Shown here: positions 850-23,052 of the stretch, one piece after another
Numbering within the stretch: the stretch's first letter is position 1
Layout: each line of letters opens with the position of its first letter
Assembly (NCBI RefSeq): GCF_007859305.1
Contig: NZ_VOHE01000002.1
Span: forward strand, 1 to 64,000
DNA from: Luteimonas wenzhouensis
Lineage (GTDB): Bacteria; Pseudomonadota; Gammaproteobacteria; Xanthomonadales; Xanthomonadaceae
Direction of reading: 5' to 3'
Length of the DNA stretch: 64,000 nt
Made by a program: the position numbers and the translations under genes
Notes under the pieces: model-generated
Databases searched by the model: none
The model's input: only the letters and a program-made list of their open reading frames with translations
Told to the model about the DNA's origin: nothing

Positions 850-1287
850 TCAACAATCAAGCGCAACACCTGGATGAGAGTTCCGCCATCTCTTCGGCCA
901 GCGCTTCCTCCGGAGTTTTCCCTTCAAGGCACATTCCCATACGGTCAACACGCGCCATCCGTCCGCCAGCAGCAGATTCACGTTCCTCTCGTCACGCGCC
1001 CTGTTAGCCGAGAACTTCTCCGCCCAGAACTCCTTTCGGGTCGTTGGTGCCGTCGAATACTTGCAGCCATGCACGTGCCAGAAGCAACCGTGCACGAAAA
1101 CCACGGCATTGAAGCGTGGGAACACCAGATCCGGCGATCCCGGCAGCTTTCGATCATGCAGACGGTATCGCAGGCCCAATCGGTGCATCGCCTTGCGCAG
1201 ACGCATTTCTGGGCCGGTATCACGTTGTCGCACGGACGCCATGATACGAGAGCGCACCGACTTGCTCACCGTGTCCACCACAATCAC
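850..1287 (-). CDS. vsr: Very-short-patch-repair (Vsr) DNA mismatch endonuclease
   Basis: Vsr nicks DNA 5' of the T in T:G mismatches that arise when 5-methylcytosine deaminates, starting very short patch repair. The 145-residue protein keeps the family core: SRIMASVRQRDTGPE near the N-terminus, LPGSPDLVF with the catalytic aspartate, the zinc/active-site stretch FVHGCFWHVHGC, and GWRVLTVWECAL. Its GTG start at 1287 overlaps the drmC stop (GTGA), so it is translationally coupled to the DISARM genes. Vsr is normally paired with a cytosine methyltransferase; the only one here is at 20389-21432, at the other end of the operon. It might alternatively serve as a nuclease effector, but that is speculation. 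Confidence 0.92.
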   Translation of the reverse strand: MIVVDTVSKSVRSRIMASVRQRDTGPEMRLRKAMHRLGLRYRLHDRKLPGSPDLVFPRFNAVVFVHGCFWHVHGCKYSTAPTTRKEFWAEKFSANRARDERNVNLLLADGWRVLTVWECALKGKLRRKRWPKRWRNSHPGVALDC

Positions 1288-2060
1288 ACCCTCTCGACGA
1301 TGCCGGTGGTGACCAACGCGTCAAGATGACGATCGAGGTTGTCGGGGATGGTGCCTCCCCGGATCAGCACACCCAGTTCCATATTGCGTTCCATGGCGGC
1401 GGTGCTGAGGTTGGCACTCGTGATGAACGCCACCGCACCATCGGCCACCGCGCATTTCGCGTGAACGGATCTCGAGGGCCAACCGCTCCCCGCCTTGCCC
1501 GCATCGGGCTTCCACACGAAGATGTTCACTGAAGGCAACGCGTCCTTCATCGCCTTCACCGAATCGAACGTGACGGCTCCACCGTGAGCCGTGGACGACT
1601 CGAGCAAGACGTCCACCTGTACGTGACGACCCACGGCGGTACGCAGGGCCCGCGTTATCGAAGGCATTTCGTACGCGACGAAACTGACCAGGAAGAGCCT
1701 ATAGCGTGCCGAATCGATGACCTCGCAGAGCACCTGCTCCGTATGCCGCACCGGGACCAGTCCGGTGGATGGTCCGGTCCAGACGAGTTCGGTCGAACCA
1801 AGACTCGCCGCCATAGAGGCCGTGGCCGAAGCGGCGACGAGCGCGGCGGCGACTTCTGCCGACGAAACCTTGGACGCTTCTCGCCACGCTTGTTCCAATC
1901 GCGCAGCGAGATTCTCGTCGGTGTTGGGGCCGAAGCTCGTCTTCACGAAACCGAACTCCTCGACCGACTTCAGCGAGCCTATCTTCTTGGCGACGGCCGC
2001 CAGGCGACGAGGATGCAGCTCTAGCCCGAGTTCAGCCACCACCCGCCAGAGCTCATCCAT
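1284..2060 (-). CDS. drmC: DISARM phospholipase D-like protein DrmC
   Basis: A 258-residue phospholipase D superfamily protein with a single HKD motif, HAKCAVAD at about residues 200-207 (H-x-K-x4-D), followed by SANLSTAAMERNMELG, typical of PLD-fold nucleases that dimerise to form one active site. Its place directly after DUF1998 and DrmA genes identifies it as DrmC. DrmC was reported as dispensable for protection in a class 2 system. The ATG at 2060 was chosen because it overlaps the drmB stop by 8 bases; an upstream in-frame start would sit deep inside drmB. The next gene, vsr, begins inside its stop codon. Confidence 0.9.
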   Translation of the reverse strand: MDELWRVVAELGLELHPRRLAAVAKKIGSLKSVEEFGFVKTSFGPNTDENLAARLEQAWREASKVSSAEVAAALVAASATASMAASLGSTELVWTGPSTGLVPVRHTEQVLCEVIDSARYRLFLVSFVAYEMPSITRALRTAVGRHVQVDVLLESSTAHGGAVTFDSVKAMKDALPSVNIFVWKPDAGKAGSGWPSRSVHAKCAVADGAVAFITSANLSTAAMERNMELGVLIRGGTIPDNLDRHLDALVTTGIVERV

Positions 2061-3903
2061 CCCGTTCCCCCTGTAGCGGGAAGAAGGCCGCATCCTTGCA
2101 ATCGAAGGTACCCACCAGCAGTGCTCGGTCGAGATAACGATTTCCACGTTCGCATGACGTTTCCGCTACGAACGCACAAGCATGGCAAGAAGCGGCGTGC
2201 AGAGAACGATCGGCCGCCGGATCGTGCTCCGAGCACAGAGGATCCGACGAACACACCCCGGCACGGACCAGGGCCTGCTCGATCAGCGATCCGAGGTTTT
2301 CCGGCTTGCCCAGTTCGACGAGCCCGCCGAGCGTACCGTCGGAGTCGGCGGCCGCCGTGTAGAGAAGAACGCCCGCCATGGGCGAAGCCGGATCGGCGCT
2401 CGCGTAGATGCGCTCGCGGATGCTCGCCGCGTTGTAGCCACACTCCAAGGCCAGCTCTCGAACGAGGAGGTGGGCGAAGGTATGCAGCATCGCGTAGCGA
2501 ATGCCTGGATATCCTTGGTCCGGCGACAGGCCACGAGCGTTACGCCATCCACGATGCCCTGCAAGAAGCATCCGGTCCCGATCGAGGACTACCTGCTGAC
2601 TTTCCCATGCCCTGACCGCATCCTCGCGAAAACGAATGAAGATCCCTTCGCCATGTACCTCGGTGGCCGGAACCCACTCCGGCTTGCTCCTGCACAAATC
2701 GGCCATGGGAGGGCGCTCGTCGGGATCGGTCGCCTCTTCGGGCGCTTCGACGCGCGTATAACCGACCAGCGCGTTGACCTCACGTAGCCTCTTCAAGAGG
2801 AGGACGTCGTCGATCAGTCCAGCGAAAGCACTTGGAATCTCGGTCTTCTCGCTCATGAAATGAGGCCAGTCCGATGGTGGATTCGGGCTTGCCAACACGT
2901 CCCACTCCGGCCGCTTGATGTCGCCCTCCGAGACGGTGGTCGTACCCGTCTTGCCGGCGCGCTTCTCTTCTATCGCTTTCCATATGTCCCTTGGATCGTA
3001 CCGGTCGATCCCCGGTAGGCTCCCACTGGCCGCCAGGGTATCGACGACGATTTCGACCGCTTCCACCGACTTCACCTTCTCGAAATACTTCCACCCGTCG
3101 GCGACGAGTTGCGACAGCTGATCGCCTTCCATCGGAATCGCCAGCACCGAAAGCGTGATCGGAAACCAGCTGTTGGTCGCCCCGAGGAGTACGGCGCGGG
3201 CAAGCTCTTCGCAGCTGTCGTCGTAGATGTCCAGGTGTGGATTACGGCCACGGCAGGCGGGGAGGTTGTCCTGCCCCTCCTTCCCGAATGCGTGGACGAG
3301 CGAACGCGCGGCGTCGCAACCGTCACACGTCACCCACAGGTTTTCGGTTTGCAAAGACGCCCCGCGTTCGAAGAAGCGAAGCGGCCCCTTGCACTCCGAA
3401 GGACCACCGTGGACGAACCAGCGCCAGGGGAAATCGTCCAGATGGCCGTTCCGACAGGCGAGCAGGAAACGCGCCGGGACGGCATCCGACTTCCCCCCTT
3501 TCTCGCAGTTGGCATGAACGAAATGAGTCTGATCGGGGCGATAGGGGTTAGCCTTGATCTCGAACAACCCGGAATCGTACTCGGCCAGCAGGCCACAACG
3601 GACGCAACGCAGCCAGCGTGGAAACGGCCGGACCGGCACTCCGATACGCCCCTCGGCCGAAAACGGGCTGACGCCTTCCTCGCGCAGGAACGGCGGCATG
3701 CGCAATCGTTCGACCTGGTGCCCGAGAATCCGGCGCACGGCCGCCAGCAATCGCGCCTCCTCCACCGGAGGACAGCGATCCGTGTCCCACCGGTCCAGTC
3801 CCATGGTGATCACGGAAAGATTGGGCAGATCGACGAGTGCGCCGGGGCCGTAGGTCCATAACAATTGACTCGGTCTCACTTGTCCCACCGGAATACCACT
3901 CAT
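2053..3903 (-). CDS. drmB: DISARM protein DrmB (DUF1998)
   Basis: A 616-residue protein beginning MSGIPVGQVRPSQLLWTYGP, a characteristic DrmB N-terminus, with cysteine clusters in the middle (CVRCGLL, CRNGHLDD, CDGCDAARS) and the C-terminal DUF1998 domain containing LHTFAHLLVRELALECGY and the zinc-type cysteines CSSDPLC and CHACAFVAETSCERGN. DrmB forms a complex with the DrmA helicase that recognises incoming DNA with a 5' single-stranded end in studied systems. The ATG at 3903 overlaps the drmA stop (ATGA). Length and domain order match the family. Confidence 0.95.
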   Translation of the reverse strand: MSGIPVGQVRPSQLLWTYGPGALVDLPNLSVITMGLDRWDTDRCPPVEEARLLAAVRRILGHQVERLRMPPFLREEGVSPFSAEGRIGVPVRPFPRWLRCVRCGLLAEYDSGLFEIKANPYRPDQTHFVHANCEKGGKSDAVPARFLLACRNGHLDDFPWRWFVHGGPSECKGPLRFFERGASLQTENLWVTCDGCDAARSLVHAFGKEGQDNLPACRGRNPHLDIYDDSCEELARAVLLGATNSWFPITLSVLAIPMEGDQLSQLVADGWKYFEKVKSVEAVEIVVDTLAASGSLPGIDRYDPRDIWKAIEEKRAGKTGTTTVSEGDIKRPEWDVLASPNPPSDWPHFMSEKTEIPSAFAGLIDDVLLLKRLREVNALVGYTRVEAPEEATDPDERPPMADLCRSKPEWVPATEVHGEGIFIRFREDAVRAWESQQVVLDRDRMLLAGHRGWRNARGLSPDQGYPGIRYAMLHTFAHLLVRELALECGYNAASIRERIYASADPASPMAGVLLYTAAADSDGTLGGLVELGKPENLGSLIEQALVRAGVCSSDPLCSEHDPAADRSLHAASCHACAFVAETSCERGNRYLDRALLVGTFDCKDAAFFPLQGERDG

Positions 3904-6900
3904 GCCGCACCTCCTCGATCCGCGTCTTTCTTGACTCTGACCCTCCATGAGGGCGGCTCTGGCAACTTCATGTCGTCCATCACCAACTGGACGCCGGGCT
4001 CGACCTCGCGCATCGACATCGGAACCGTCAACTCGTCCCACGCCCGAGCTCCGGGCTTCTTGAGAAGACCGGCGACGTCACCCTGGCGTCGTTCGGTCTC
4101 GTAGCCGAGTCGCCGTCCCCCTTTCGTCGCCTCCTTGACCCAGCGGTCGAATCGATCCGCCACCATGGTCGCGGTATGGGTCTCGATCGCCTTCTTGCCG
4201 GTGACCAGCCAGGCACGATCCGCGATCGCCTTTCGAACCGCTCCCACCTCCGGTTTTCCCGTGCTGTCCAATCGCTCCGCGCCGAGGTTCGGGTTCAGTT
4301 CGTCCTTGTCCAATCTCAGCAGGCTCACCATGGTCCCGGTGAGTCCACGATCCATCGCGCGGGGCGCGAATGGTGTCACCGACTGAGCCTCCACGTGCTT
4401 GTAGAAGGTGGCGTGGTAGTGCTCGAACGTCTCGTAGTGCGAGAGGTCGCGGGGCCTCGCCCAAGTCAGCACCGTGCAGACGAGCCCCGGGAAGGCACGC
4501 CCGACGCGACTCGTCGCCTGGATGTATTCGGCTGTGTTCTTGGGTTGGCCGTTGACCACCATCAACCCGAGACGGTTGACGTCCACCCCAACCGAGAGCA
4601 TGTTCGTGGCCAAAACGACGTCGATGGCCCTGGTCTCGTCCTTCTGCCAAACCGCCTTGAATTTCACCTCCAGCTGATCGAGCTTTCTCGGAATGTCCTT
4701 GTTGGACACGCGCGACGTGAGCTCGTCCACGTTCCGCACCGACCGTTGCGCCAGCCCCGGACGCGCGACACGACTCATCTGCACTCGGTAGGCGCGAGTC
4801 TGTACGTCGTCCTCGGCGAGGCGTCGCATGCCGCCCAACTCGCGCAAGGAGTTGAAGTAGCCGACGACCGTCATGTACGGGTCGGCCGCGTGGCCGAAGC
4901 GCTCGAACAGAGCCTGAGCCGCCGTCAGCAGAGCCACGTAGACGCGAATCAGCACGGCGGGCCTCGAACTGCCGGGTGAACATATCCCCAGGTAACGGCG
5001 ACCCGGCTTGCTCTCGATCGGCCGCTGGACGGAGAAGAAGTTGTCTTCCACGTCCAGTCCGTGCGGCGGGAAGACGGCCACCTGGCGCAGGAACACGTTG
5101 TTGACCTGCTCCGCCGCCTTGCGAACGGTCGCCGTGGAGGCGATGACTTTCGGCCGGACGTCCTTGCCGTCCCACTTCCAGGTACAGAGCTCGTCCACGG
5201 CCGTCTCGTAGAGCCCCACCATGGTTCCCAGCGGGCCGCTGATCAGGTGAAATTCGTCCTGGATGACGAGATCGGGCGGTCGGATAGGCGTGATCGTTCG
5301 CGCAGTGGTGGCGGCGAGCGCCCCCTTCTTCTGGTGGTTGCCGGTACAGTCCGCCTCCGGCCAGAGCAGCCCGTGTCGAGGACATTCCGTTGTTGCCCTG
5401 CCGAACAAGGTGCGGACCTGTCCACGCCAGGCCATCATCGCGAACTTGTCCACGGTCGCCACCATCATGCTCGGCGGGCGTCGGTAGATCTCGTCGTCCA
5501 CCACCTTCACGGGCAATCCCTGGTGGTTGGACCTGGCGTGGCTGAAGTCACAACGCCCGAGCTTGTCGCCGCAATAGACGACCGTCCTGCCGCTATCGCG
5601 ATCCACGCGGATGTCACGCCCAGGAGCGATCTCGGAACCGCACCAGGGGCAGAAGGTGAGCTGGGCCGGCGTCGAGCCAGTACCATACTTGCCGGCTCGC
5701 TCCTTCTCGATGGCCGCGTGGCTTTCCTCGGTCGTGTTCGGCGTCACGCGCTGACCGACCCAAAGGCCGATGGTGAAAGGCTCGTCGCCCCATTTCTTCG
5801 GGTCGACCCGTCGCAGCACCTCCATCGCGCAGATCAACGCGGTGGCTCGTTGGAACTGCTGCAGGGTGAGCAGACGCAAGGTGTATCGCATGATCACGGC
5901 CAGACCGCGTCTCGCGTCGTAACCACCGACAGTCCCCTGTAGCCTGCGCACCGCCATGGTGAAAGCCGCCACTCCGAGGTAGGCCTCGGTCTTACCACCA
6001 CCGGTGGGGAACCAAAGCAGATCGGCGTAGGCCTCGAGCGGCTCGGTCCGGTCCCGATGATGGGGATCGGCGAGGGCCGGAATGGAAAGCAGAACGAAAG
6101 CCAACTGGAATGGACGCCATGATGGCTTCTCGCGCTTCTCCAATTCGGAAAGATCGGGCGCTCCGCCACGACGGCGTTCCAGCGAATAGACGCTGCGGAG
6201 GCGCTGCATCGACATGGCCCGATTCGCGAAGCGGAAAGCCTCGAGCGCTCGGTCGTCCGAACCGAGCACCTGTACGCCTTCCCTCAGGCGCTCCAGCACC
6301 GCCTGACACCGGCCCATCGCATCCGACGCCACCTTGTCGTATCCGACGACGTCGCCACCGATCCGGGCACGTTGCTCGGCAATCCAGACGGCATAGTCAT
6401 CGACGAGAGCGGTGAGCGCGTCGACGAGATCGGAGCGATCCATGGTCGCCAGCCGATTCATGTCGAGCCAACCTTCCTCCACCATCCGTCGCATGGCCGG
6501 CCGGTCCTCGGGTCGGGAGCCAGGTGTCTCCGTGACACGAATCTCGTAGCGCGGCAGAACCTCCGTACGTACCTCGACGGCATGCTCGACGTCGTCCGAA
6601 GCAGTCTCGGAATGCACGGAAACGCCGTGTCCAACGGCGAATTCCACCCGGCGCCGGTAAATCATCTCCAACGCCAACCTTTCCTCATCCGGATGGGTGG
6701 CTTGTAGGTTCGGCTTGCGACGAAAGACAGGGCGTCGCTCTGGATCGCGAACGACCAGCTCGGGCTGGAAAATCCACGCTGCATCCTGGTTCTGGTCGGG
6801 AAGCTCCTGGGTGTTGACCAAGAACAGTGTCACCAGGCGGTCCCCGTTCGGGAGTGGCGAACGTACGGTTCCTTGGATCACCACGGCGGGGCACTCGCCG

Positions 6901-7772
6901 TCCGGAGCGATCGGGGCGATTTCGCCATCCCGCATGGGAAGGACCAGCCTGCCGCCCGAGGGGATACGCTTCCAGGCCCTCAGGGGCTTGCTCGTCTTCT
7001 CGTCCAAGTGCCGCTCGCTTTCGCCGCGCTCGTAGCGCCCCCAGCGGGCTTCGACTTCCAGTGCCGTGACGTCCGCGTCGACGCAGAACGTGATGCCGAA
7101 CGACGACGGCACCAGCGACTGGTTGGTGGATGCGTCTATCTCGCGCGGCCCTTCCTCGGCCTCGACACGACCGCTGGTGCCCGCGAGGTCGTCTTCCTCC
7201 TCGACCCGACTGTCGCGGGGCGCGAGTTTCCCCACCAGATAGCGGTCACGCACGCTCATCTCGACGATCTCTTCGCGCGGACCGTCGGCGGGGCCGAGCA
7301 GGTCGTCGGTGACCGCCGCTTCGAGGAGTTCCCGGACATAGGCCTGCTCGTCCGGCGTGTCGCCCACGATCGTGGGAAACGCCGACCAGTCGAGACCGGT
7401 GGTGGTCTTCAAGGCGCTCGCGAAGACCGACCAATCGAGGCGGCCAATCGCACCGGCAGAGGTAGGCAAGGCGACGCCGACGGAAGCGTGGGCGATCGGC
7501 GACGGCAGACGGACCACACCGTCGAAATGGAACACCACCTCGTCGTGCATGGTACGGACGCGATAGACCCTTGCGAAAGCGACGGCATTGCCCATCGGCC
7601 CGTCGGCGATCAGGAAACCGTCACCTTCCCCGATCGCGGCGAAGTCATAGCTCTGCCCCTGCACACGCAGCGAGAACGTCTCGAATCTCGCCTCAGCGCC
7701 GAGGCGAACGAGCCATGCATTCGGAAGCCCACCAGTACCGGCGGTCGTATCGTTCTTGTCCATTTCATCCAT
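3900..7772 (-). CDS. drmA: DISARM helicase DrmA
   Basis: A 1290-residue superfamily 2 helicase, the core of DISARM. After about 580 residues of N-terminal domain come WFPTGGGKTEAYLG (motif I, about 587-600), a zinc-like pair CPWC (708-711) with later cysteines, the unusual Walker B box IQDEFHLISG (837-846) in place of DEAD/DEAH, IASTAT (motif III), ATNMLSVGVDV and QATSRVGR (motif VI, 1085-1092). The DEFH box and SVGVDV segment are typical of DrmA. The ATG at 7772 has GAGG about ten bases upstream. A 70-base gap separates it from the preceding actin-like gene, the second largest gap in the block, and holds an inverted repeat. All helicase motifs look intact. Confidence 0.96.
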   Translation of the reverse strand: MDEMDKNDTTAGTGGLPNAWLVRLGAEARFETFSLRVQGQSYDFAAIGEGDGFLIADGPMGNAVAFARVYRVRTMHDEVVFHFDGVVRLPSPIAHASVGVALPTSAGAIGRLDWSVFASALKTTTGLDWSAFPTIVGDTPDEQAYVRELLEAAVTDDLLGPADGPREEIVEMSVRDRYLVGKLAPRDSRVEEEDDLAGTSGRVEAEEGPREIDASTNQSLVPSSFGITFCVDADVTALEVEARWGRYERGESERHLDEKTSKPLRAWKRIPSGGRLVLPMRDGEIAPIAPDGECPAVVIQGTVRSPLPNGDRLVTLFLVNTQELPDQNQDAAWIFQPELVVRDPERRPVFRRKPNLQATHPDEERLALEMIYRRRVEFAVGHGVSVHSETASDDVEHAVEVRTEVLPRYEIRVTETPGSRPEDRPAMRRMVEEGWLDMNRLATMDRSDLVDALTALVDDYAVWIAEQRARIGGDVVGYDKVASDAMGRCQAVLERLREGVQVLGSDDRALEAFRFANRAMSMQRLRSVYSLERRRGGAPDLSELEKREKPSWRPFQLAFVLLSIPALADPHHRDRTEPLEAYADLLWFPTGGGKTEAYLGVAAFTMAVRRLQGTVGGYDARRGLAVIMRYTLRLLTLQQFQRATALICAMEVLRRVDPKKWGDEPFTIGLWVGQRVTPNTTEESHAAIEKERAGKYGTGSTPAQLTFCPWCGSEIAPGRDIRVDRDSGRTVVYCGDKLGRCDFSHARSNHQGLPVKVVDDEIYRRPPSMMVATVDKFAMMAWRGQVRTLFGRATTECPRHGLLWPEADCTGNHQKKGALAATTARTITPIRPPDLVIQDEFHLISGPLGTMVGLYETAVDELCTWKWDGKDVRPKVIASTATVRKAAEQVNNVFLRQVAVFPPHGLDVEDNFFSVQRPIESKPGRRYLGICSPGSSRPAVLIRVYVALLTAAQALFERFGHAADPYMTVVGYFNSLRELGGMRRLAEDDVQTRAYRVQMSRVARPGLAQRSVRNVDELTSRVSNKDIPRKLDQLEVKFKAVWQKDETRAIDVVLATNMLSVGVDVNRLGLMVVNGQPKNTAEYIQATSRVGRAFPGLVCTVLTWARPRDLSHYETFEHYHATFYKHVEAQSVTPFAPRAMDRGLTGTMVSLLRLDKDELNPNLGAERLDSTGKPEVGAVRKAIADRAWLVTGKKAIETHTATMVADRFDRWVKEATKGGRRLGYETERRQGDVAGLLKKPGARAWDELTVPMSMREVEPGVQLVMDDMKLPEPPSWRVRVKKDADRGGAA

Positions 7773-7800
7773 AAGTCACCAACCTCGTCGGCGTTCGACC

Positions 7801-7822
7801 GAATCGATACGCCTCTCGATTC
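7801..7822. repeat. Inverted repeat upstream of drmA
   Basis: Seven-base perfect inverted repeat GAATCGA-N8-TCGATTC in the 70-base gap between the actin-like gene and drmA. It lacks a downstream T-run on the minus strand, so it is not an ordinary terminator there. It could be a protein-binding site, an attenuating hairpin or a processing site for the downstream drmABC-vsr transcript. No function is proven. Confidence 0.45.
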
Positions 7823-7842
7823 AAAAAGGGTTTCACACCCGC

Positions 7843-12689: not shown

Positions 12690-12704
12690 GTCGGGCGTTC
12701 CTCG

Positions 12705-15700
12705 CTATTCAACCAATCGGTACCGGGCACCGCGCCGTTCCCCTTGGCGCTCGACGAGGCCACGCGCAACGAGATCGGCGATGAGGGTGTTCCATTGGCC
12801 ATCGCTGAGTCCGGTGGCGGCGACGATGTCCGACTTGGCGTGCCACCCTGGGGAGGAACTCAGGAAGTCGAGGATGGCGTCCGCAGGCATCGCTGTGTAG
12901 CGAGCGCGTGATTCGGCGGCTTCAAGGTAGTCGCTCTCGTTCGCCGATGCGGCATAGACGACCGAATTGCCAACCGATGCTGTCGCAGCCGAAGGCATGC
13001 CCAAGTCGAGGGTGGCTTGTGTCGCTTCCTCCGCGCCATGACGTACGCGAGGTGCGCGTGCGGAGGAAGGGCGAGTGGCGTTTTCACGCAGCCCACGAGT
13101 GACTTCCTCCTCGTAGCGTTGCCGATTGAGGTCCGACAGGCGGCGCAGGACTTCCAGGCGTGCGGGCTCCGAAATGGTGAAGCGTACGCGGTCGTTCTCG
13201 GGAAGGTACGTGACTGAGTGGAAGCCGTGATCGAGATGAAGATCGTCCCAACCATAGGCAAGGGCGGTCGCCTCGTCGATCCGTACCTGCAGAGTCCGAA
13301 GTTCCTGAATGTGTTGGTCTGCCTCGTCTGGATCGTGAAAGCGTCTGTAGAGTCGGGTCAGGCCAACCCTCTCGGTCCGCATGATTTCAGATCGGAGTGC
13401 GTGGAAGGTATCGCCAAGCTCTTCCAAGCCAGGATCATGCACTCCAGGCAATGGAAACGTCTCGAATGCATCCGATGGGCTGTATCGAAGATCGCTCTTC
13501 AGCTTGGAAGAATGCTGCCAGGCGAACACGCCGTGGAGGCTCGACTGGAACAGCGCGAAGTCAGCGGCACTGCCGAACGCGAACGCCACGATCTGATCGG
13601 AAAATACCGTGGTGGGATCGACGAGCGCGAAAGCGAGGGTCTTGCTTACCCTCGCAACCACCAATACTCGAGCCAGCGGCCGTGCCGCCGGATCCCAATG
13701 GTCGGGATGCTGGCAAAACGTCGCTCCCCGTCCGATAGCGTGATACAGCCCCGGACGCACGTTCCAGTGCTGCCACCACATAGACATGATGTTTCGGTAG
13801 GACTTTTCCTTGCTCTTTTCCAGCCGCTCGGGGTAGACACGTTCCTTGACCCACGCGTAGGGCTCGCGGTAGGTCGCGGCCTTCTCCTCCGGCCAGTCCC
13901 AGAAGTTGATGACCCAACGACTCGCGCGCTGTTCCGGGTCCGAGTTCACGTCTTCGCCGTTGAGGTAGGGGAAGATCACCTCCGCGTTTCGTGGATCGGC
14001 ATCGAGCATCCGCTGGGCTTCGTCGTGCGAAAGGACGAAGCCCATACCATTCACGAAAGAGCCGATAAACGCTTTCCCTTCGTTCGCTTTGAGCTTCTTC
14101 GGGCTCCATTCCTCCTGGTCGGACAGGAAGGCCGAAACGAACGAAACCGATCTACCGGACAGGATTCGTGCTCCAGTCCACTCGCCCCTGTGGACATGAA
14201 CGCGGCTGGTGACCACGGCGGCCTTGCCCGGCCAAGGCTCGTTCGGATACGCCGCGTAGATGGTCGCACCGTTCCGTGTCATCCACTCCAGCCCACCCTG
14301 CCGGGTATCGCCCTCGGCGATGGTGTTGACGGCCAACAACCCGAAGTTGCCGCCGTCGCGGAGCAGCCCGAACGCTCTCCGGAAGAAATGCGCGACGAGA
14401 TCGGTGTTCTTGCTCGCGGGCGGATGGATGGCGGCGAGGAACGTGTTGTACGTCGTGCCCAGCACCGTGCTGATGCGCTTTCCGCCGAGGAACGGCGGAT
14501 TGCCGATGAAAGCGTCGAACCCACCGTTCTCCCGCGCGAACACCTCCGGGAATTCCAGCGGCCAGTGGCACGGCCTGCGGGGCGGTTTGCCCTGCGGCAG
14601 GTCCACCGCCAGGGCGTCCCGAGCTCGACGCACCACCGCGTCTTCTGCGTCCTCGTCGCCGTCGAGATACCCTTGGGCTTCGATTGCCAGTGCCTGCAAC
14701 GCCGCCTCCAGCGCCGCGCCGCCGCCCGTCCGCAGCGCTTCGCCGACGAGGGCGTCGGCCACCCGCTCCGACGCTTCGAGCACCCGTCGCGCTTCGGCGT
14801 CCAATCGCGCCATGGCTTCCACGTCCCGGATGTCCCGGATTGGCGTCTCGCGCAGCCGCCTGCGGATCTCGATCGCGTCGCGCACCGCGCGCTCGACGTT
14901 GCGGCCGAACAGTCGCATCTGGCCCTCCCTACCGGAGGGCGTCATGGTCAGCTCCGTGAGCTGGTCGAGCCGGTGGATGCCGAGCAGGCTGTCGCCGCAG
15001 CGCAGGTTGTGGTCCAGAAAACCGAAGGGCCGGCCCTTGGCCAGGGTCGTGAGCCACAGGGAGAGCTTGGCCAGCTCCACCGCCAGCGGATTCATGTCCA
15101 CGCCGTAGAGGCAGCGCTCGGCGACGAGACGACGGGCGATGGTGAGGCGGTCGTCGAGGCTCGTCGGCATGGGGTCGAGACCGCCCAGGTCGTCCACCGT
15201 CTCGCCGTTCACGGTGATCCGACGACCGGCCGCTTCTGCCTCACCCCAGGCCTCGACCAGCCGTTCCGCGAGCCAGCGGCAGGCCTGTACCAGGAAGGCC
15301 CCCGATCCCATGGCCGGATCGCAGAGCTTCAGTTCGAGCAGTTCGTTGTCGGATTTGAGGCGCCATTCCTCGCGAGGAAACCCCTCGGCCGGCCCGACGT
15401 AGGCGACCGGCTCCAAGGTCGTCTCGACGATGGTCTCGGTGAGCGATTTCGGCGTGTAGTGGGTACCGGTTTCGCGCCGGTCGGTGCCCAGCGTGACCGC
15501 GAACGCCCCCTCCCGGTAGACGAGCGGCTCGCCCCAGTTGTCCGTACGAAGAAGGTTCGCGAACGGACGTACACGACCGGCGAGCTCGGACTCGCCGCCG
15601 CAGGCCTGGAGGAGCTTCCCGAAGAGGGCGTCGTCGGGCTCGCGTGACAGCGCGTTGCGCAACGCGGCTTCCGACCGCCCCGTGGTTTCCAGCAGCAGCG

Positions 15701-17117
15701 CGATCAGCGCGGCTTCGCCGTCCAGCCTGGCGGACTCGAGCTCGGCCAGGGCGACGTTTGGGTTCTTGGCCTTCTGAGACCCCACGAGCCCCAGGGTGAT
15801 CCGGGGGACTCGGCCCACGGTGTATTCGAGCAGGCCTTCGTAGACGTGGCCGATCTGTTCCACGTCCAAGGCCTTGTATGACAGAAGCATGGCGCCGCTT
15901 CGTTGCTCCAGAACCTGCAGGGCCTCCAGCAGCATCAGCACGGTGCGGTTGTCGATGGGGAGCGGTGACGCCGGGGTGTCGCGCCAGTTCGATCCCTTGG
16001 CCCGCCCCTCCAGGAACGGGAAACGGTCCGGGTCGAACAGGGAGCCGCCGAGCGCCGGCAGACGCAGGCTCTCGTGCTCCATCCCACCGTACACGGCTCG
16101 GAACACCGCGAGGAGTCGCGACCATGCGTCGTGGCGTCGTTCCAGCACCTCCGGCCCGTGACGGCCGGCCTCGTCGGCCAACTGCGCGCGCAGCGGGGAG
16201 ACGGCGTAACAGCGGTCGTATACCGGGTCGCCCAGCAGGAGCAGGCCGCGCTCCTCGGCGCAGAGCACGAACACCAACCGCATCATGACCGTGAGGCCGG
16301 CTTCGTAAAGCTCCGCCGGTCGCACGTCGCGCAGCAGTTCGCGGTTGCGGTCCACGTCGGCCCGGTCGAGCGCCTGGACCAGCACCTCCACCGCCCGGCG
16401 CACCTGCTGGCCCAGGGTGTCGGTCACTTCTTCCTGGTACTCGAGCGATTTTTCCAGCAACGCCACGAGGGTCTCGTCCGCCGGACCGAAACAACGGCGG
16501 ACCCCGAGGAGGGAGCTGAACGCCTGGAGCGTCACCGGCTCCTGGAACCAGAGGCGCGCGTACCAGGAGGCGTGTCCCGACGTCGCGCCGACCGGTGCGT
16601 TCACCAGCGTCCACCGCTCGCCATCGGTGACGAGCCCGAGCCGCACGCCCGTCGCGCGGCAAAGCAGCGTCATGCGCTTGATGGCCGATGCGGGCCACCC
16701 GTCGCCGACGAGGGGAGATTCGAGGCCGGTGCCGGGCGGGTGCACGGCGACGAGCAGGCGCGCTTCGCCGTCCGCCAGGACCGCCCAATCCGGCGCGATC
16801 GTGATCCCGTGTTCCGGCGACGTGTAGGAGAAGGAGCCGTCGAACTCCCCACGGGGCTTCAACACCTTGGGGTCGTACTCGAGCAACTCTTCCAGCACGA
16901 GCCGGACCCATTCTCGGTGCAGCGCTTCGAGTTGCGGGTCGGCCTCGTCCACGGCTTCCCGCCACTCCTCGTGGGCGCTCCGCAGGCGCCGACGATCCCT
17001 GGTCTCGACCGCTTCGATACCCTGGGGGAACACCGCGTCGAGGATCGGCACCGCGAGGAACGGGCCGGACCACTCGACGAGCGAGAGCCACTCGGTATGT
17101 CGGGAGACGCCGTTCAT
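12705..17117 (-). CDS. drmMI: DISARM N6-adenine DNA methyltransferase DrmMI
   Basis: A 1470-residue large adenine methyltransferase of the Eco57I/PglX type. The AdoMet motif I is LCDPAMGSGAFLVQA (about 598-612) and the catalytic motif IV is IGNPPFLGGK (871-880, NPPF). The first 550 residues are a helical domain with a nuclease-like segment (FSYTSPEHGITIAPDWAVLADGEARLLVAV). The region after NPPF should hold target recognition. The last 60 residues look like a winged helix (DAILDFLSSSPGWHAKSDIV and on). Its job in class 1 DISARM is to mark host DNA. The ATG at 17117 overlaps the drmD stop (ATGA); upstream in-frame sequence is an open but non-coding frame inside drmD. No inactivating change seen. 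Confidence 0.93.
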   Translation of the reverse strand: MNGVSRHTEWLSLVEWSGPFLAVPILDAVFPQGIEAVETRDRRRLRSAHEEWREAVDEADPQLEALHREWVRLVLEELLEYDPKVLKPRGEFDGSFSYTSPEHGITIAPDWAVLADGEARLLVAVHPPGTGLESPLVGDGWPASAIKRMTLLCRATGVRLGLVTDGERWTLVNAPVGATSGHASWYARLWFQEPVTLQAFSSLLGVRRCFGPADETLVALLEKSLEYQEEVTDTLGQQVRRAVEVLVQALDRADVDRNRELLRDVRPAELYEAGLTVMMRLVFVLCAEERGLLLLGDPVYDRCYAVSPLRAQLADEAGRHGPEVLERRHDAWSRLLAVFRAVYGGMEHESLRLPALGGSLFDPDRFPFLEGRAKGSNWRDTPASPLPIDNRTVLMLLEALQVLEQRSGAMLLSYKALDVEQIGHVYEGLLEYTVGRVPRITLGLVGSQKAKNPNVALAELESARLDGEAALIALLLETTGRSEAALRNALSREPDDALFGKLLQACGGESELAGRVRPFANLLRTDNWGEPLVYREGAFAVTLGTDRRETGTHYTPKSLTETIVETTLEPVAYVGPAEGFPREEWRLKSDNELLELKLCDPAMGSGAFLVQACRWLAERLVEAWGEAEAAGRRITVNGETVDDLGGLDPMPTSLDDRLTIARRLVAERCLYGVDMNPLAVELAKLSLWLTTLAKGRPFGFLDHNLRCGDSLLGIHRLDQLTELTMTPSGREGQMRLFGRNVERAVRDAIEIRRRLRETPIRDIRDVEAMARLDAEARRVLEASERVADALVGEALRTGGGAALEAALQALAIEAQGYLDGDEDAEDAVVRRARDALAVDLPQGKPPRRPCHWPLEFPEVFARENGGFDAFIGNPPFLGGKRISTVLGTTYNTFLAAIHPPASKNTDLVAHFFRRAFGLLRDGGNFGLLAVNTIAEGDTRQGGLEWMTRNGATIYAAYPNEPWPGKAAVVTSRVHVHRGEWTGARILSGRSVSFVSAFLSDQEEWSPKKLKANEGKAFIGSFVNGMGFVLSHDEAQRMLDADPRNAEVIFPYLNGEDVNSDPEQRASRWVINFWDWPEEKAATYREPYAWVKERVYPERLEKSKEKSYRNIMSMWWQHWNVRPGLYHAIGRGATFCQHPDHWDPAARPLARVLVVARVSKTLAFALVDPTTVFSDQIVAFAFGSAADFALFQSSLHGVFAWQHSSKLKSDLRYSPSDAFETFPLPGVHDPGLEELGDTFHALRSEIMRTERVGLTRLYRRFHDPDEADQHIQELRTLQVRIDEATALAYGWDDLHLDHGFHSVTYLPENDRVRFTISEPARLEVLRRLSDLNRQRYEEEVTRGLRENATRPSSARAPRVRHGAEEATQATLDLGMPSAATASVGNSVVYAASANESDYLEAAESRARYTAMPADAILDFLSSSPGWHAKSDIVAATGLSDGQWNTLIADLVARGLVERQGERRGARYRLVE

Positions 17118-20100
17118 GCCGTTCCCCCTCCACGAATCGAAGACCGGGGTACTAGGAACACGACGGCCACCGGGAAAGTCCGATCGACGAGGCCGGCGTA
17201 GCGGGCCTCGATGGCGGCGGTCTCGCGTTCGCGCTCGGCGGGAATGCGCGCCAGCCGTGCGCGCAGTGCGTCGACGTCTCGGCGAAGTTGGTCGCGTTGC
17301 TCCGAGGGCCACAGTTCCATCTGCGCGGGAAGGGGCGCTTCGAGTTCGCGGCGAATGGCGCCTTCCAGCTCGGCGAGGACACCGGTGAGGTCCGCGATCT
17401 CGCCCGCCTTGCGACGCTCCAGGGTGTTCTCCAGATACTTCAGGCGGTCGCGGGAGCGCGCCTCCACGGCCAGTCGTATCGACTCCTCGTGACGGCGGAA
17501 GCGATCGGCCAGCGCCTCGAAGAGGTCCGCGGGGGGGTCGATCGGCCGGGCGTCGTCGAGTAGCTTCTCCAGCCGACCGATCTGGGCGATGCGCCGGAAC
17601 GTTCCGTGTTCGATCTCGCCGCCCGCGAGCGTCAGCTCCTCGTGCAAGCGATGGTGGTTGCCACCCGTGATCACGAGACGCGACCAGACGGCGACGGCGG
17701 GGACGCGCAGGCCAGGATCGGAGACGGCCCGCACGGTCACGCGGTGAAGCTTCTTGAGGTCCTCCAGGGCCCAGATCTCGGCCCTCAGCAGGCGCAGACA
17801 CATCTGTACCAGGCGGTGATTGAGATGCGCGAGCACCACGTCGTCGCGCCCCTTGGCGACCTCGTGGTCGAAGGTGATCGGTCGCCGCGCCCCCGTATGC
17901 GGATGCTCCAAGCCGGCCGTCGCCCGCCCCCAGGAACCGGGCAACCAAGGCACGTCGAACACGCTGCCTTCAGGTGCACCTGGCAAGGATGCGGGTTTCA
18001 GCGCTGGCAGATCGGCCAATTCCATCCCGACCCGCACCGCCCGAGAGATACGGTCGGGGGAGAGATGGAAGTCGTTCCGCGCCTCCAGCAACCGTTCGTG
18101 CAACTTGGCGACTCGCTCCTTCAGCTTGCGTTCGGCAGCGACGAAACGGCGGGCCCGCTCGGCCTTCTCCTCGGCGACTCGGGTATCCAGCCGGTCACGA
18201 CGCCCGAGCATGGCCTCCTCGATCTGTTGCGCGATCACGGGACCGACGCTGCCGAGATCCTCGCGAATGGCGTTCACCTTGAGCACGGCCCGCATGAGGT
18301 ATTCGTGGTCGCCTTCCAGTTCTCCCACGCTCGGATCGGCGGCGACGGTTTCGGCGGCGAACCCCTTGCCGACCGGGTGCCAGACGTAGACCCGGTCGTG
18401 CTTCTGGCCGTGACGGTCGATACGGCCGTTGCGCTGTTCCATCACGTTCGGGTTCCAGGGGATCTCGACGTGAATGAGGTAGTTGCAGTGGTTCTGGAGA
18501 TCAATGCCTTCCGACGCTGCGTCGGTGGCCAGAAGGATTCTCACCGGCGAGACGTCGGGGTGTGCCTGGAACGCCGCCTTGATCCTCTCGCGCTCGTCCC
18601 CGTCCATGCCGCCGTGGAGGATGGCGATGCGGTCGCTCCCGTAACCGTGGCTCGCGAGGATCTGGTGCAGCCAGGCATGGGTGGCGCGATACTCGGTGAA
18701 CAGGATGACGCGGCGGTCGTTCCAGTGACCGTCGGTCTTGAGGTACGCATCCAGCCAATTCAGTATGGCTCGCGCCTTCGAGTCCGGTTTGTTCTTGGCC
18801 GACTCCGCCCAACGTCCTAGCCGATCGAGCATATCGCGCTGCTCGGTCGTCAGGGTCGGGGCAGTCGCGCCCGCTTCGCGGGTAGCGTCATCCAGCGCCA
18901 CTTCCAGCCGGCCGTCGTCGGCCCAGTCCTCTTCCGCGCGCAGGATGGCCTTCCGCAGGATGCGATCCTCCATCGCCTTCCCGCTCTTCGTGGCCGGGCC
19001 TCGCTCCAGACTCTCCCGATGCTTGGAGAGCGTGGCGGCGAAGGCCGCGGGCGAAGAAAACAGTCGTTTCTTGAGGAGTTTGTGGACGAAGTCCGCGCCG
19101 AACTCGGAACGGGTACCCCCCACGCTGCGCGCTCGGCTCTCGGTGTAGTCGCGGAGAAGTCTGTGCATCTCCCGCTCTTCGGGCGTGTACTCGACTTCCA
19201 GCGGCATCAGCTCGCGACGTGGATAGATCGGTTTTCCGTCCGCATCCACCAGATCGGTTTTCAGTCGTCTGACCATGACACGCTGGAGCTGCCGCTCGTC
19301 GGGCATGACGGACCGCGCGAACCTCTGGTCGTCGAGGAGTTCCAGCAGGGAGGTGAACGACACCTGATAGCCGTTGTGCGGCGTGGCGCTCAAGAACAGA
19401 CGATGCTCGAAGTGGGGCGCTATGGCGCGGATCAACCGGGTTCGTTGGCTTTCGAGCGCGTACTGGGCGGCGGCCGCCGGAGCCACGTTGTGCGCCTCGT
19501 CGACGACGAGAACGTCGAACTTGCGCGGATAGGTGGCGTGTGGCGGCAAAACGTCCTTCATGAGCCGCAGCCCTTCGCCGCTCTTCATCCAATCCATCGA
19601 CGTCACCAGACGGGGGAAAGAGGTCCACGGATTGGCGTGGATGCCGCGCTCGCGGCGCAGCCGGCGGATGTAGTCCGTGTCGACGATCCGAAACTCGAGA
19701 CCGAACTTTTCGTGCATCTCCATCTGCCACTTCACCTGGAGCGAGGCGGGGCAGACGATCAGGACCGTCCGAGCGCGGTGGCGTACCAACAGTTCCTGGA
19801 TGACCAAGCCGGCCTCTATGGTCTTGCCTAGACCGACGTCGTCCGCGATCAACAGGTTCACTCTGGCCATGTCGATCGCCCGGACGAGCGGATCGAGCTG
19901 GTAGTCCTCGATGGTCACGCCGCTGCGAAACGGTGCCTGGAGGAACGACCTGTCGGCGTTGGTCGCCGCGCCCCAACTCACCGCGTCGAGAAAGGCCTCC
20001 AGCCGATCGGCGTCGTCGTGCCCCGTGATTCTGGGCAACCCGGCTTTCTCGAGTACGCGCGCACCGGGCTCGATTTCCCAAACGACGTCGAGCTCCTCGC

Positions 20101-20296
20101 CGAGCGCGTCCTCGTCGATGGAGGTGAGGTTGACTAGATGCTGCCAGGAGGCAGCTTCGGTATCGCGATCGATGCTGGCGCCCTGGACGTCACCGACCAC
20201 CCACTGTCGCCGGCGAACTTCCACGAGCTGGCCCGGCTCCGGGACCGCCGAGCTGAAGCCTTGCCGTATCTGGTCTGGTGCGACGATCGCGGACAT
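17114..20296 (-). CDS. drmD: DISARM SNF2-like helicase DrmD
   Basis: A 1060-residue SNF2-type ATPase, the marker gene of class 1 DISARM. Motifs: LLIADDVGLGKTIEAGLV (about 148-165), VLVVDEAHNVAP (262-273), LFLSATPHNGY, ILFTEYRATHAWLH, LLATDAASEGIDLQ and EQRNGRIDRHGQK. The C-terminus is a long charged helical region ending in RTFPVAVVFLVPRSS, as in other DrmD proteins. The ATG at 20296 is preceded by AGGAAAGGT; longer in-frame starts extend into the methyltransferase gene. It lies 92 bases after the cytosine methyltransferase stop and overlaps drmMI by 4 bases. Confidence 0.94.
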   Translation of the reverse strand: MSAIVAPDQIRQGFSSAVPEPGQLVEVRRRQWVVGDVQGASIDRDTEAASWQHLVNLTSIDEDALGEELDVVWEIEPGARVLEKAGLPRITGHDDADRLEAFLDAVSWGAATNADRSFLQAPFRSGVTIEDYQLDPLVRAIDMARVNLLIADDVGLGKTIEAGLVIQELLVRHRARTVLIVCPASLQVKWQMEMHEKFGLEFRIVDTDYIRRLRRERGIHANPWTSFPRLVTSMDWMKSGEGLRLMKDVLPPHATYPRKFDVLVVDEAHNVAPAAAAQYALESQRTRLIRAIAPHFEHRLFLSATPHNGYQVSFTSLLELLDDQRFARSVMPDERQLQRVMVRRLKTDLVDADGKPIYPRRELMPLEVEYTPEEREMHRLLRDYTESRARSVGGTRSEFGADFVHKLLKKRLFSSPAAFAATLSKHRESLERGPATKSGKAMEDRILRKAILRAEEDWADDGRLEVALDDATREAGATAPTLTTEQRDMLDRLGRWAESAKNKPDSKARAILNWLDAYLKTDGHWNDRRVILFTEYRATHAWLHQILASHGYGSDRIAILHGGMDGDERERIKAAFQAHPDVSPVRILLATDAASEGIDLQNHCNYLIHVEIPWNPNVMEQRNGRIDRHGQKHDRVYVWHPVGKGFAAETVAADPSVGELEGDHEYLMRAVLKVNAIREDLGSVGPVIAQQIEEAMLGRRDRLDTRVAEEKAERARRFVAAERKLKERVAKLHERLLEARNDFHLSPDRISRAVRVGMELADLPALKPASLPGAPEGSVFDVPWLPGSWGRATAGLEHPHTGARRPITFDHEVAKGRDDVVLAHLNHRLVQMCLRLLRAEIWALEDLKKLHRVTVRAVSDPGLRVPAVAVWSRLVITGGNHHRLHEELTLAGGEIEHGTFRRIAQIGRLEKLLDDARPIDPPADLFEALADRFRRHEESIRLAVEARSRDRLKYLENTLERRKAGEIADLTGVLAELEGAIRRELEAPLPAQMELWPSEQRDQLRRDVDALRARLARIPAERERETAAIEARYAGLVDRTFPVAVVFLVPRSSIRGGGTA

Positions 20297-20388
20297 ACCT
20301 TTCCTGTCATGTGACGGCGCATCGAAGCGCCGAACGCCACATCGACCATCCGGATGGAATGCTCGACGCGGTTCCTCTAAACCCAACT

Positions 20389-21432
20389 TCAGCCGTATTC
20401 GACGACGTGCCGTAGGACGCTCTTGCCGATGGCTTCGCCCAACTTCACGGGGACGGCATTGCCGATCAGACGACCCACCGTCTTGCGATAGATGGGCTCG
20501 CCCCGTCTCGCGAATTTGTATCCGCGCGGGAAGCTCTGCAGGATCGCCCCCTCTCGCAGCGAGATGGCCCTGTCCTGCTCGGGATGCCCGAAGCGCCCGT
20601 TTCCGAAGCCGTAAAACTGAGTGGTCATCGTCGGCGCCGGTTCGTCCCACGACATCCGCCCGTACACGCTCGGATAGGTCTTGCCGGACCCCTTCTTGTG
20701 GCAGTCGGCCACGAGATCTTCGTCCCAGTCACGCCACGAACCGCCTGGACGCGATGCCTTGATTCGCTTCAGGTTGGTGGGTGATAGCGTGCATGCTTGG
20801 TGCAGCGGATCACGGTCGTGGGTTTCTCCCGCCTCGATCGGGGGAAGGTCGCCAATGGCCTGTCGGACCGTGACATGCCTCGCCGGCATGTGCGTGGGCG
20901 GAATCATTTCGATGGGGCCGAGGCGGGACGCGAGCAGCACGAGCCGTTGGCGCTGCTGCGGAACGCCGTAGTCCGCGCAGTGGACCGCCCGATAGGAAAC
21001 ATGAAATTTCAGTCGGCGCAGTTCTGCGACGAATTCGTCGAATATGTCCTGTTGTGCGAGACGCGGGACATTCTCCATCGTGACCAGATGGGGCTTGGTC
21101 TCGCGAACCAGTCGGGCGAACTGGCGGAGAAGATGCCAACGGTCGTCGGAGGCGTCGGTCTTGCCCTGGCTGTAGGTGGAGAACGGCTGACAGGGGGCGC
21201 ATCCCGCTAGCAACCTGTACGGTGCGCCATTCATCGCGTCTTGCAGCTCCCTCGCGGAAACCCGATCCACAGACTTGAGCTCGAATCGCGCCCCGTTGTT
21301 GGCCTCATAGGGATAAGCGCACGCAGGATCGATATCCACACCCACGCGCACATCTATGCCGGCCTTTTCTAGCCCTCGCGTGAGCCCCCCCGCGCCACAA
21401 AACAAATCGACGGCGGCTATGGTCTTCTTCAT
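20389..21432 (-). CDS. DNA (cytosine-5-)-methyltransferase
   Basis: A 347-residue C5-cytosine methyltransferase with all key motifs: DLFCGAGGLTRGLEKAG (I, residues 9-25), GCAPCQPFS (IV, catalytic Cys in PC), TMENVPRL (VI, ENV), YGVPQQRQRLVLL (VIII) and RLIGNAVPVKLGEAIG (X). The target recognition region between VIII and IX is short. It is the first enzyme gene of the block. Class 2 DISARM uses a C5 methyltransferase (DrmMII), and Vsr genes also go with such enzymes, so this protein may protect DNA within DISARM or be a Dcm-like companion of Vsr. Its recognition sequence cannot be read from the protein. Confidence 0.95.
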   Translation of the reverse strand: MKKTIAAVDLFCGAGGLTRGLEKAGIDVRVGVDIDPACAYPYEANNGARFELKSVDRVSARELQDAMNGAPYRLLAGCAPCQPFSTYSQGKTDASDDRWHLLRQFARLVRETKPHLVTMENVPRLAQQDIFDEFVAELRRLKFHVSYRAVHCADYGVPQQRQRLVLLASRLGPIEMIPPTHMPARHVTVRQAIGDLPPIEAGETHDRDPLHQACTLSPTNLKRIKASRPGGSWRDWDEDLVADCHKKGSGKTYPSVYGRMSWDEPAPTMTTQFYGFGNGRFGHPEQDRAISLREGAILQSFPRGYKFARRGEPIYRKTVGRLIGNAVPVKLGEAIGKSVLRHVVEYG

Positions 21433-21489
21433 GTTCGTTCTTCTCGATTCAATGCCACATCATCGCCCCCAGCCCTCGTTCGACGTGAA

Positions 21490-21693
21490 TCAGCGCGATT
21501 TGCCCGGTTCGCCCTTGACGTCCCGTACATACCGCTCCGCCGCCTGGCGAACCACCCACGCCAGTGAAACCCTGTTGGCTTCGGCGATTCGCTCCAAGTC
21601 CGCATACACGTCGGCCGGAAAGCTGATGGATGCGCGCACGGTCCTAGATTCGTCGTTCCTTCGGCTGGCTCGCTTGGTCATCATGGTGTCCAC
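21490..21693 (-). CDS. Ribbon-helix-helix (CopG/Arc-type) regulator
   Basis: A 67-residue protein with the ribbon-helix-helix pattern: basic N-terminus, beta strand TVRASISFPADVYADL, then helices LERIAEANRVSLAWVVRQ and AAERYV. Such proteins bind DNA as dimers through the strand. GTG at 21693 or the ATG codons at 21684/21681 could be the start. It lies 57 bases before the cytosine methyltransferase gene in the same direction, so it is a good candidate for an autoregulator of the defence operon; this role is inferred from position. It could also be an antitoxin, but no toxin gene is beside it. Confidence 0.8.
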   Translation of the reverse strand: MDTMMTKRASRRNDESRTVRASISFPADVYADLERIAEANRVSLAWVVRQAAERYVRDVKGEPGKSR

Positions 21694-22965: not shown

Positions 22966-23052
22966 CTTGGTCTCCTTCCGCATGAGTTGGCAGGAGTCCA
23001 TGAAGGCGCTGTTCGGTCCGCCAGCCAAGTCAATTCAGAAGACGCGCGGTTA

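Follow-up and report, generated by a model that had tools for sequence, protein, structure and literature searches.

Which of the genes that flank a defense core belong to the system, and which only travel with it? A ten-gene block in Luteimonas wenzhouensis raises this question. It lies in the stretch of DNA analyzed here (bases 1-64000 of the 660-kb contig NZ_VOHE01000002.1, hereafter the window; genome size, 3.44 Mb) and joins the genes of DISARM (defense island system associated with restriction-modification) to a C5 cytosine methyltransferase, a Vsr endonuclease, and, between drmMI and drmA, two ATPase genes: one encoding a SNF2 protein and one encoding a protein with a predicted ASKHA (actin/Hsp70) fold. 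A preliminary description of the window had read all of these extras as one expansion of a class 1/class 2 hybrid. We found that the SNF2 and ASKHA genes form an almost obligate pair, mostly outside DISARM, whose divergence pattern disagrees with that of the seven other block genes compared. We favor, at somewhat better than even confidence, the reading that the window holds a DISARM system with a C5 methylase and Vsr, and that the pair is a portable accessory of DNA-targeting systems sitting in a drmMI-drmA cargo slot. Our searches for the pair and for DISARM extras, whose coverage of the literature is partial, returned no paper describing the pair; as far as they reach, the insertion of a SNF2-ASKHA module into a DISARM clade is undescribed.

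An almost obligate SNF2-ASKHA gene pair

The two cassette genes of the window are as follows:

9558-12689, minus strand: SNF2 ATPase, RapA-like, 1043 residues, first cassette gene (by models, tree, and RapA profile)
7843-9561, minus strand: ASKHA (actin/Hsp70-fold) ATPase, 572 residues, second cassette gene (by predicted fold)

The SNF2 protein scored above the cutoff of the DrmD model NF038317 (651 bits; cutoff, 610) and matched the PADLOC DrmD model PDLC02623 across its length. Although it scores like DrmD, it falls in the SNF2-ASKHA family by phylogeny. In a 55-row tree, 48 rows of the pair SNF2 family formed one group apart from five DrmD proteins, with a Shimodaira-Hasegawa-like approximate likelihood ratio of 100 (a quick method with this measure in place of bootstrap, with long rows included and 42 of the 89 SNF2 loci left out). 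Identity to pair proteins from outside DISARM was 45 to 46% over most of the length, against about 95 bits with DrmD. A drmD duplicate was ruled out, the protein being nearer to the non-DISARM pair proteins and outside the DrmD clade. Since a SNF2 protein with no DISARM match alongside (L030:10001-13135; loci are numbered L and genomes G) reached 1064 bits on PDLC02623, annotation tools may over-call DrmD; standard models thus label one half of the pair "DrmD" and leave the other half unnamed.

For that other half, the 572-residue protein, searches of Pfam, NCBIfam, PADLOC, and PHROGs gave no match at E ≤ 0.001, but structure prediction yields an ASKHA fold with DnaK as the top fold match. Residues 142-550 of the model match the nucleotide-binding domain, the protein ends about 20 residues later, and the Hsp70 substrate-binding domain is absent from the predicted model; residues 17-97 have a predicted local distance difference test score under 50. 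The phosphate-1, connect, phosphate-2, and adenosine motifs are all present, as in ASKHA proteins, and ATP-site residues are invariant in the pair proteins.

The best profile match of the SNF2 protein was RapA (1.4e-52). In a comparison with pdb structures made with VIA-align, RapA was also the only listed structure family aligned over 746 to 780 residues of the SNF2 model (8spg, 8t0l, 6bog), and eukaryotic remodeler motors were among the top fold matches of the SNF2 core. Together with the DnaK match of the partner, these RapA alignments speak for a role in transcription, in which the pair, like RapA, would remodel RNA polymerase bound to phage DNA or recycle stalled polymerase, the ASKHA protein serving as a chaperone-like cofactor. 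However, RapA-type motors are common in defense (the PADLOC models for DrmD, BrxHI, and DpdE all score on the SNF2 protein), and no transcription-gene family was prominent among the recurrent neighbors, which were identified from representatives only. We consider a transcriptional role unlikely.

Pairing was seen in two collections. When plasmids were searched by tblastn for ASKHA (E ≤ 1e-3) and SNF2 (E ≤ 1e-60) separately, the identical 6 of 72,556 records were returned. The two genes were adjacent in all six loci, which gave no match to drmMI, drmA, drmB, drmC, vsr, or the C5 methylase at E ≤ 1e-4. A SNF2 profile scan of named genomes yielded 496 confirmed loci, of which the best 80 were taken; carrier counts are lower bounds. 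The ASKHA gene adjoins SNF2 in 70 of these 80. Three of the ten misses end at contig ends (L034, L095, and L101), one has its ASKHA gene separated by about 880 bases and lying beyond a short SNF2 frame (L092), one has a weak match 8 kb away on the opposite strand (L054), and five have none (L059, L097, L103, L105, and L106). SNF2 matches from a class-level draw of genomes (G494, G532, G629, and G756) stand outside this tally, and two weak ASKHA matches were dropped (the one in G050, where the surrounding locus, L021, has no SNF2 gene, and a 56-residue match in G311). When neighbors were clustered over 89 loci (omitting L021 and two loci nearly identical to others counted, L015 to L012 and L018 to L038), the ASKHA family was found in 79 and the next commonest family in 6.

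Among the 68 loci with long frames for both genes, the order was SNF2-ASKHA in 65 and reversed in 3, all cyanobacterial, and the commonest spacing was a 4-base overlap. Tree distances of the two proteins were strongly correlated over 69 long-frame pairs including the window (Mantel r, 0.93; 0 of 2,000 permutations as high), though part of this correlation may arise because both follow their organisms. By record titles among the matches listed, the pair ranges over Pseudomonadota, cyanobacteria, spirochaetes, Acidobacteria, Planctomycetes, and one archaeon. A phage-borne module was rejected, as no pair match occurred in 50,697 phage records; IMG/VR gave five weak matches (25 to 32%). SNF2-ASKHA is an almost obligate gene pair, and the two-gene ATPase module proposed for the window is thus conserved as a pair elsewhere.

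The DISARM operon and its drmMI-drmA slot

All ten genes of the block are open and lie on the minus strand, running from base 21693 down to base 850 in the order RHH (ribbon-helix-helix), C5 methyltransferase, drmD, drmMI, SNF2, ASKHA, drmA, drmB, drmC, and vsr. Families were assigned with PADLOC, Pfam, and NCBIfam models, and start codons were picked from alignment and upstream sequence. The eight genes besides the pair are as follows:

21490-21693, minus strand: ribbon-helix-helix protein (PF07878, 28.5 bits, cutoff 26, 1.3e-6)
20389-21432, minus strand: C5 cytosine methyltransferase, DrmMII-like/type II (PF00145, 5e-54)
17114-20296, minus strand: drmD, SNF2-like DISARM helicase (NF038317, 1426 bits, cutoff 610; reading frame opens at 20650, start at 20296 by alignment)
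12705-17117, minus strand: drmMI, adenine methyltransferase of MmeI/Eco57I type (PADLOC DrmMI, 1888 bits; Pfam Eco57I and MmeI_Mtase)
3900-7772, minus strand: drmA, short-form DISARM helicase (NF038325, 1464 bits, cutoff 950; PADLOC DrmA, 1680 bits)
2053-3903, minus strand: drmB, MZB/DUF1998-type (NF038324, 749 bits, cutoff 240; reading frame opens at 4041, start at 3903 by alignment)
1284-2060, minus strand: drmC, phospholipase D (PLD)-type nuclease (NF038319, 242 bits, cutoff 133; reading frame opens at 2147, start at 2060 by alignment)
850-1287, minus strand: vsr, very-short-patch-repair endonuclease, last in the block (TIGR00632, 144 bits, cutoff 98; Pfam Vsr, 1e-29)

The contig begins at window base 1, which limits the view past vsr to 849 bases. 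Under the alignment-chosen starts, five of the seven drmD-vsr junctions are overlaps, of 8 bases at drmB/drmC and of 4 at drmD/drmMI, SNF2/ASKHA, drmA/drmB, and drmC/vsr. The remaining two junctions are gaps of 15 bases (drmMI/SNF2) and 70 bases (ASKHA/drmA). The block is an intact class 1 DISARM operon, and it stands beyond chance given several family E values of 0 and the recurrence of the core order, with the pair, in three other genomes. To this extent the preliminary description was accurate: its minus-strand block, its five class 1 genes (drmA, drmB, drmC, and drmD above their NCBIfam cutoffs, drmMI by PADLOC), its tight packing with overlaps of 4 to 8 bases at five of seven junctions, and its actin-like gene were all recovered.

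The three other genomes are Rhodanobacteraceae SCNH_5 (L027), Proteobacteria SB0662_bin_53 (L028), and Haliea sp. EAC94 (L029), hereafter the siblings. Each carries SNF2-ASKHA-drmA-drmB-drmC downstream of drmMI, with drmD preceding drmMI in L027 and L029. They share with the window the core, the C5 methylase, Vsr, and the pair in the same slot. They differ in that a GHKL ATPase precedes the pair and in that vsr follows the methylase, both directly ahead of drmD (in L028, on another contig), whereas the window's vsr ends the block; L027 additionally holds a PifA-like KAP NTPase that the window lacks. DISARM, methylase, Vsr, and pair thus occur together in four genomes, and a one-off insertion in the window is ruled out by the siblings. 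The count that the preliminary description had called for therefore cuts both ways: its gene combination recurs and is not unique, but it is rare. Among 369 genomes drawn from the class, 11 had drmA (E ≤ 1e-50) and 5 had SNF2 (E ≤ 1e-60), and the window's genome was the only one with both; among plasmids, drmA (E ≤ 1e-100) was found in 34 records and the pair in 6, with none holding both.

In a drmA+drmB tree of 11 loci (five of the 16 DISARM loci, L125, L130, L132, L133, and L134, stand outside it), seven loci form one fully supported clade: the window, L027, L028, L029, G692 (L123), and plasmids of Deinococcus sp. AJ005 (p96k, L126) and Microvirga terrae (pR24_2, L127). The two plasmids have drmD-drmMI-drmA-drmB-drmC with C5 methylase and Vsr as in the window but no pair, the drmMI-drmA slot being empty in p96k and holding a GHKL ATPase and an O-methyltransferase in pR24_2. 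Counted over 14 class 1 loci (leaving out L130, with drmMI elsewhere, and L125, without drmMI), the slot holds extra genes in 10:

Window: SNF2-ASKHA pair
L028 and L029: GHKL ATPase and pair
L027: KAP NTPase, GHKL ATPase, and pair
L127: GHKL ATPase and O-methyltransferase
L123 (G692): 1060-residue reverse transcriptase (RT)-like protein (RVT_1, 3e-5, below the Pfam cutoff)
L128: XisI/XisH
L129: GIY-YIG protein
L134: hypothetical protein and PIN protein
L133: three opposite-strand genes
L124, L126, L131, and L132: none

The drmMI-drmA junction is a recurrent cargo slot and a place to seek undescribed defense genes. The GHKL (HATPase_c_3) ATPases of these operons lie at L029:8112-9989, L028:4503-6383, L027:7963-9990, and L127:13483-14898; the call was made by Pfam for L029, L027, and L127, with which the L028 protein clusters. 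The L029 protein also matches a type II restriction endonuclease model (5e-32) and SpbK (4e-15). At the G692 locus (L123:8440-11622 and 11638-17593), where the RT-like protein fills the slot, drmMI is in two frames with a third frame between them.

A C5 methylase and vsr stand beside DISARM in all seven clade loci, and neither was found at E ≤ 1e-8 in the stretches fetched for the other four tree loci (L124, L128, L129, and L131). Two loci outside the tree count against a strict association: a C5 methylase is annotated in Nocardioides L133, and in G657 (L125) drmA and drmB are accompanied by vsr and a weak methylase match, with drmMI and drmD lacking. The two genes accompany the clade but also occur elsewhere. 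Because T:G mismatches, which arise when 5-methylcytosine is deaminated, are repaired by Vsr enzymes, Vsr here is most naturally understood as a partner of the methylase. Class 2 DISARM is defined by drmE. DrmE was not seen among the PADLOC and NCBIfam matches listed for the ten proteins (for five of them, the best 25 PADLOC families each), all best families being others. The methylase scored nearly equally on the PADLOC models for DrmMII (311.8 bits) and generic MTase_II (302.9 bits), and a passage of a DISARM paper already writes "DrmMI and/or DrmMII" (PMC9142583). We therefore found no support for the proposed class 1/class 2 hybrid, since a C5 methylase and vsr are typical of this drmAB clade. 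The stronger form of that proposal, in which all ten gene products would make up a single, larger machine, draws on the tight, overlapping block and on the constancy of methylase and Vsr in the clade. Against it stand the unseen drmE, the differing histories of pair and core (see below), and the lack of the pair in other clade members, and we judge it highly improbable.

Ahead of the methylase, the RHH protein is probably a regulator, judging from its family; a small helix-turn-helix (HTH) gene replaces it in L027 and L029, and L144 has an HTH_17 match.

Divergence of the pair and origin of the block

We compared the genes of the four carriers by a distance ratio, for which the window's average distance to the three siblings was divided by the average distance of the siblings from one another. 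The ratio was 3.28 for the methylase gene (dcm), 2.65 for vsr, 2.52 for drmA, 2.48 for drmB, 2.45 for drmC, 2.21 for drmD, and 1.63 for drmMI. In contrast, it was 1.09 for SNF2 (bootstrap interval, 0.98 to 1.22) and 0.92 for ASKHA (0.84 to 1.01), outside the intervals of all seven others. The drmAB data reject the four carriers as a clade (approximately unbiased [AU] test, P = 7.8e-33), with pairless G692 and Microvirga falling between, whereas the SNF2 and ASKHA trees unite them at 100/100. Within the carriers, the window is outermost in the SNF2 tree (84/80), and the corresponding AU P value for ASKHA was 0.47. The pair occupies the drmMI-drmA slot in two DISARM lineages. Both the distance ratios and the drmAB tree speak against all ten genes having been inherited vertically as a set. 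Because the divergence pattern of the pair disagrees with that of every other gene compared, the pair was probably exchanged as one cassette. The extras are consequently not one expansion, as had been proposed: methylase and Vsr follow the DISARM divergence pattern and the two ATPases do not, which makes the clade's own genes separable from the plugged-in pair. The window's vsr itself is 57% identical to the second vsr of the L027 genome, compared to 46 to 48% to the siblings' DISARM vsr, and with its place at the 3′ end of the block it may have been replaced.

The preliminary description had also proposed that the extras would be passengers if they were absent from most closely related loci and if their deletion left protection unchanged. 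Absence was borne out for the ATPase pair only, which is lacking in the three pairless clade members (drmA 60 to 63% identical to the window's) and in all 34 drmA plasmids; methylase and Vsr were present throughout the clade. The pair is therefore optional. This absence and the variable slot content would suit an unrelated pair trapped in the operon with no effect on defense, but passenger status does not follow, since the pair is conserved in its own right. Slot and order are the same in four genomes, and the ATP-site residues are invariant. The window and sibling SNF2 proteins are 80 to 84% identical, compared to 62 to 63% for DrmA, even though their fourfold-degenerate sites are only 38 to 55% identical (31 to 41% for drmA), which points to strong selection on the SNF2 protein. 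A passenger is in our view decidedly unlikely.

The block as a whole was probably acquired horizontally, as suggested by its low G+C content (64.1%, against 69.8% over window bases 22001-64000) and by the distribution of drmA within the genus, where the window's genome is the only one of 52 to carry it. Upstream on the same strand (22146-24174) lie a DUF6088/AbiEi-like gene and a Fic-family gene, with a photolyase gene beyond. G+C content stays low until about 24 kb, so the island may extend to there.

Proposed role of the pair and comparison with known systems

Outside DISARM the neighbors of the pair change. Three of the best 80 loci carry drmMI, drmA, and drmB above 250 bits, and 76 carry none of them. 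The pair was found beside McrB/McrC (L010, L017, L019, and L078), a type III-like methylase (L016, L056, L074, and L085, with a restriction subunit also in the first three), HsdM and/or HsdS (L057, L086, L090, L098, and L100), HmaB/HmaC (L052, L075, L079, L083, and L099), and the PADLOC candidate PDC-S68 (L020, L042, L075, L079, and L083). Neighbor families were identified from one or few representatives each, and many loci end at contig ends. Given that the pair also accompanies McrBC, type I, type III-like, and Hma genes, we read it as a probably defensive accessory of DNA-targeting systems and not as a part of DISARM. In the congener G003 (L016; G003:C1:256500-276400), the pair follows a type III-like N6/N4 methylase without DISARM, and its ASKHA protein is 31% identical. 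In Qipengyuania (L072:1-14634), vsr and distant drmA and drmB genes share one strand, and the pair lies on the opposite strand together with a weak C5 methylase match; this may be a second case of the pair linked with a DISARM-like system.

The same neighborhoods would also fit a pair that is by itself a complete antiphage system and, like the other cargo genes, does no more than share a transcript and a slot with DISARM: 76 loci lack the three DISARM genes, neighbors vary, and the slot elsewhere holds other probable defense genes such as the PifA-like KAP NTPase and the RT-like protein. However, no nuclease or recognizable effector domain was found in either the SNF2 or the ASKHA protein, and the siting in or next to restriction genes, and, in the window, the 4-base overlap within the pair and the 15-base gap to drmMI suggest co-function. 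We regard a stand-alone system as doubtful.

Several observations weigh against the accessory reading itself. Only 25 of 79 pair loci have a recognized restriction or defense neighbor, a raw count uncorrected for chance neighbors that takes in the above families, the PLD/ResIII helicase family, and DISARM genes within about 10 kb. Six of the 80 SNF2 loci have enough sequence and lack an adjacent ASKHA gene (L054 and the five without any match); L065, counted among the 70, has only a 102-residue fragment (28 bits); and the ASKHA gene is split in two frames in L064, L081, and L100. The SNF2 protein has diverged less than the DISARM core, and this could also signal a more general cell role. The exchange of the cassette rests on four carriers, and the tree shapes by themselves would allow ancestral presence followed by three losses (Deinococcus, Microvirga, and G692).

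How might such an accessory work? SNF2 motors can travel on duplex DNA and displace proteins. For DISARM, passages of the published work describe methylation as the mark of self and DrmAB as binding 5′ overhangs, with an ATPase stimulated by unmethylated DNA (PMC9142583). In our preferred reading, DrmMI, and probably the C5 enzyme too, would mark host DNA; DrmAB would sense unmarked DNA, upon which DrmC and others would act. The SNF2 motor would travel on invading duplex DNA and strip or shift bound proteins, with the ASKHA protein as its ATP-switched partner, presumably in a physical complex. DNA cleared in this way would become readable or cuttable by the host system, helping DISARM in the window and widening the reach of whichever system the pair has joined. 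If the pair indeed helps several unrelated restriction systems, proteins on invader DNA would be a shared obstacle to restriction.

Among known systems, RapA, the E. coli SWI2/SNF2 ATPase, resembles the SNF2 protein in fold over most of its length. RapA is a housekeeping RNA polymerase factor, and we know of no ASKHA partner for it. In ARMADA, the YprA helicase carries a fused C-terminal Vsr domain, and passages on ARMADA, BRIGADE, and TALON describe the Vsr domain as fused to a helicase, with no actin-like partner found in those passages (PMC12458937). The window differs, in that its drmA is the DISARM short form in which Pfam finds Helicase_C only, and its vsr is a separate gene. Closer in content are the CoCoNuT/McrBC superoperons, where, according to passages of their description, Hsp70-like nucleotide-binding domain proteins (CnuD) and SNF2 ATPases occur near McrBC (PMC11090510). 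CnuD is described there as linked to McrB/McrC homologues and as a unit of nucleotide- and substrate-binding domains whose Walker A-like motifs are degenerate (PMC11090510). The window's ASKHA protein, which lacks the substrate-binding domain, keeps the conserved motifs, and is tied to SNF2, is set apart from CnuD by this description. In the eukaryotic INO80, SWR1/SRCAP, and SWI/SNF remodelers, a SNF2 motor is associated with an actin-fold protein. The pair is alike in joining SNF2 to an actin fold, although this is an analogy only, as any SNF2 core matches these remodelers. By that analogy, we tentatively raise the possibility that the pair is a general antiviral remodeler, built like the eukaryotic unit of motor and actin-related protein and recruited independently by DISARM, McrBC, type I, type III-like, and Hma systems; if true, it would be a bacterial counterpart of the SNF2-actin remodelers.

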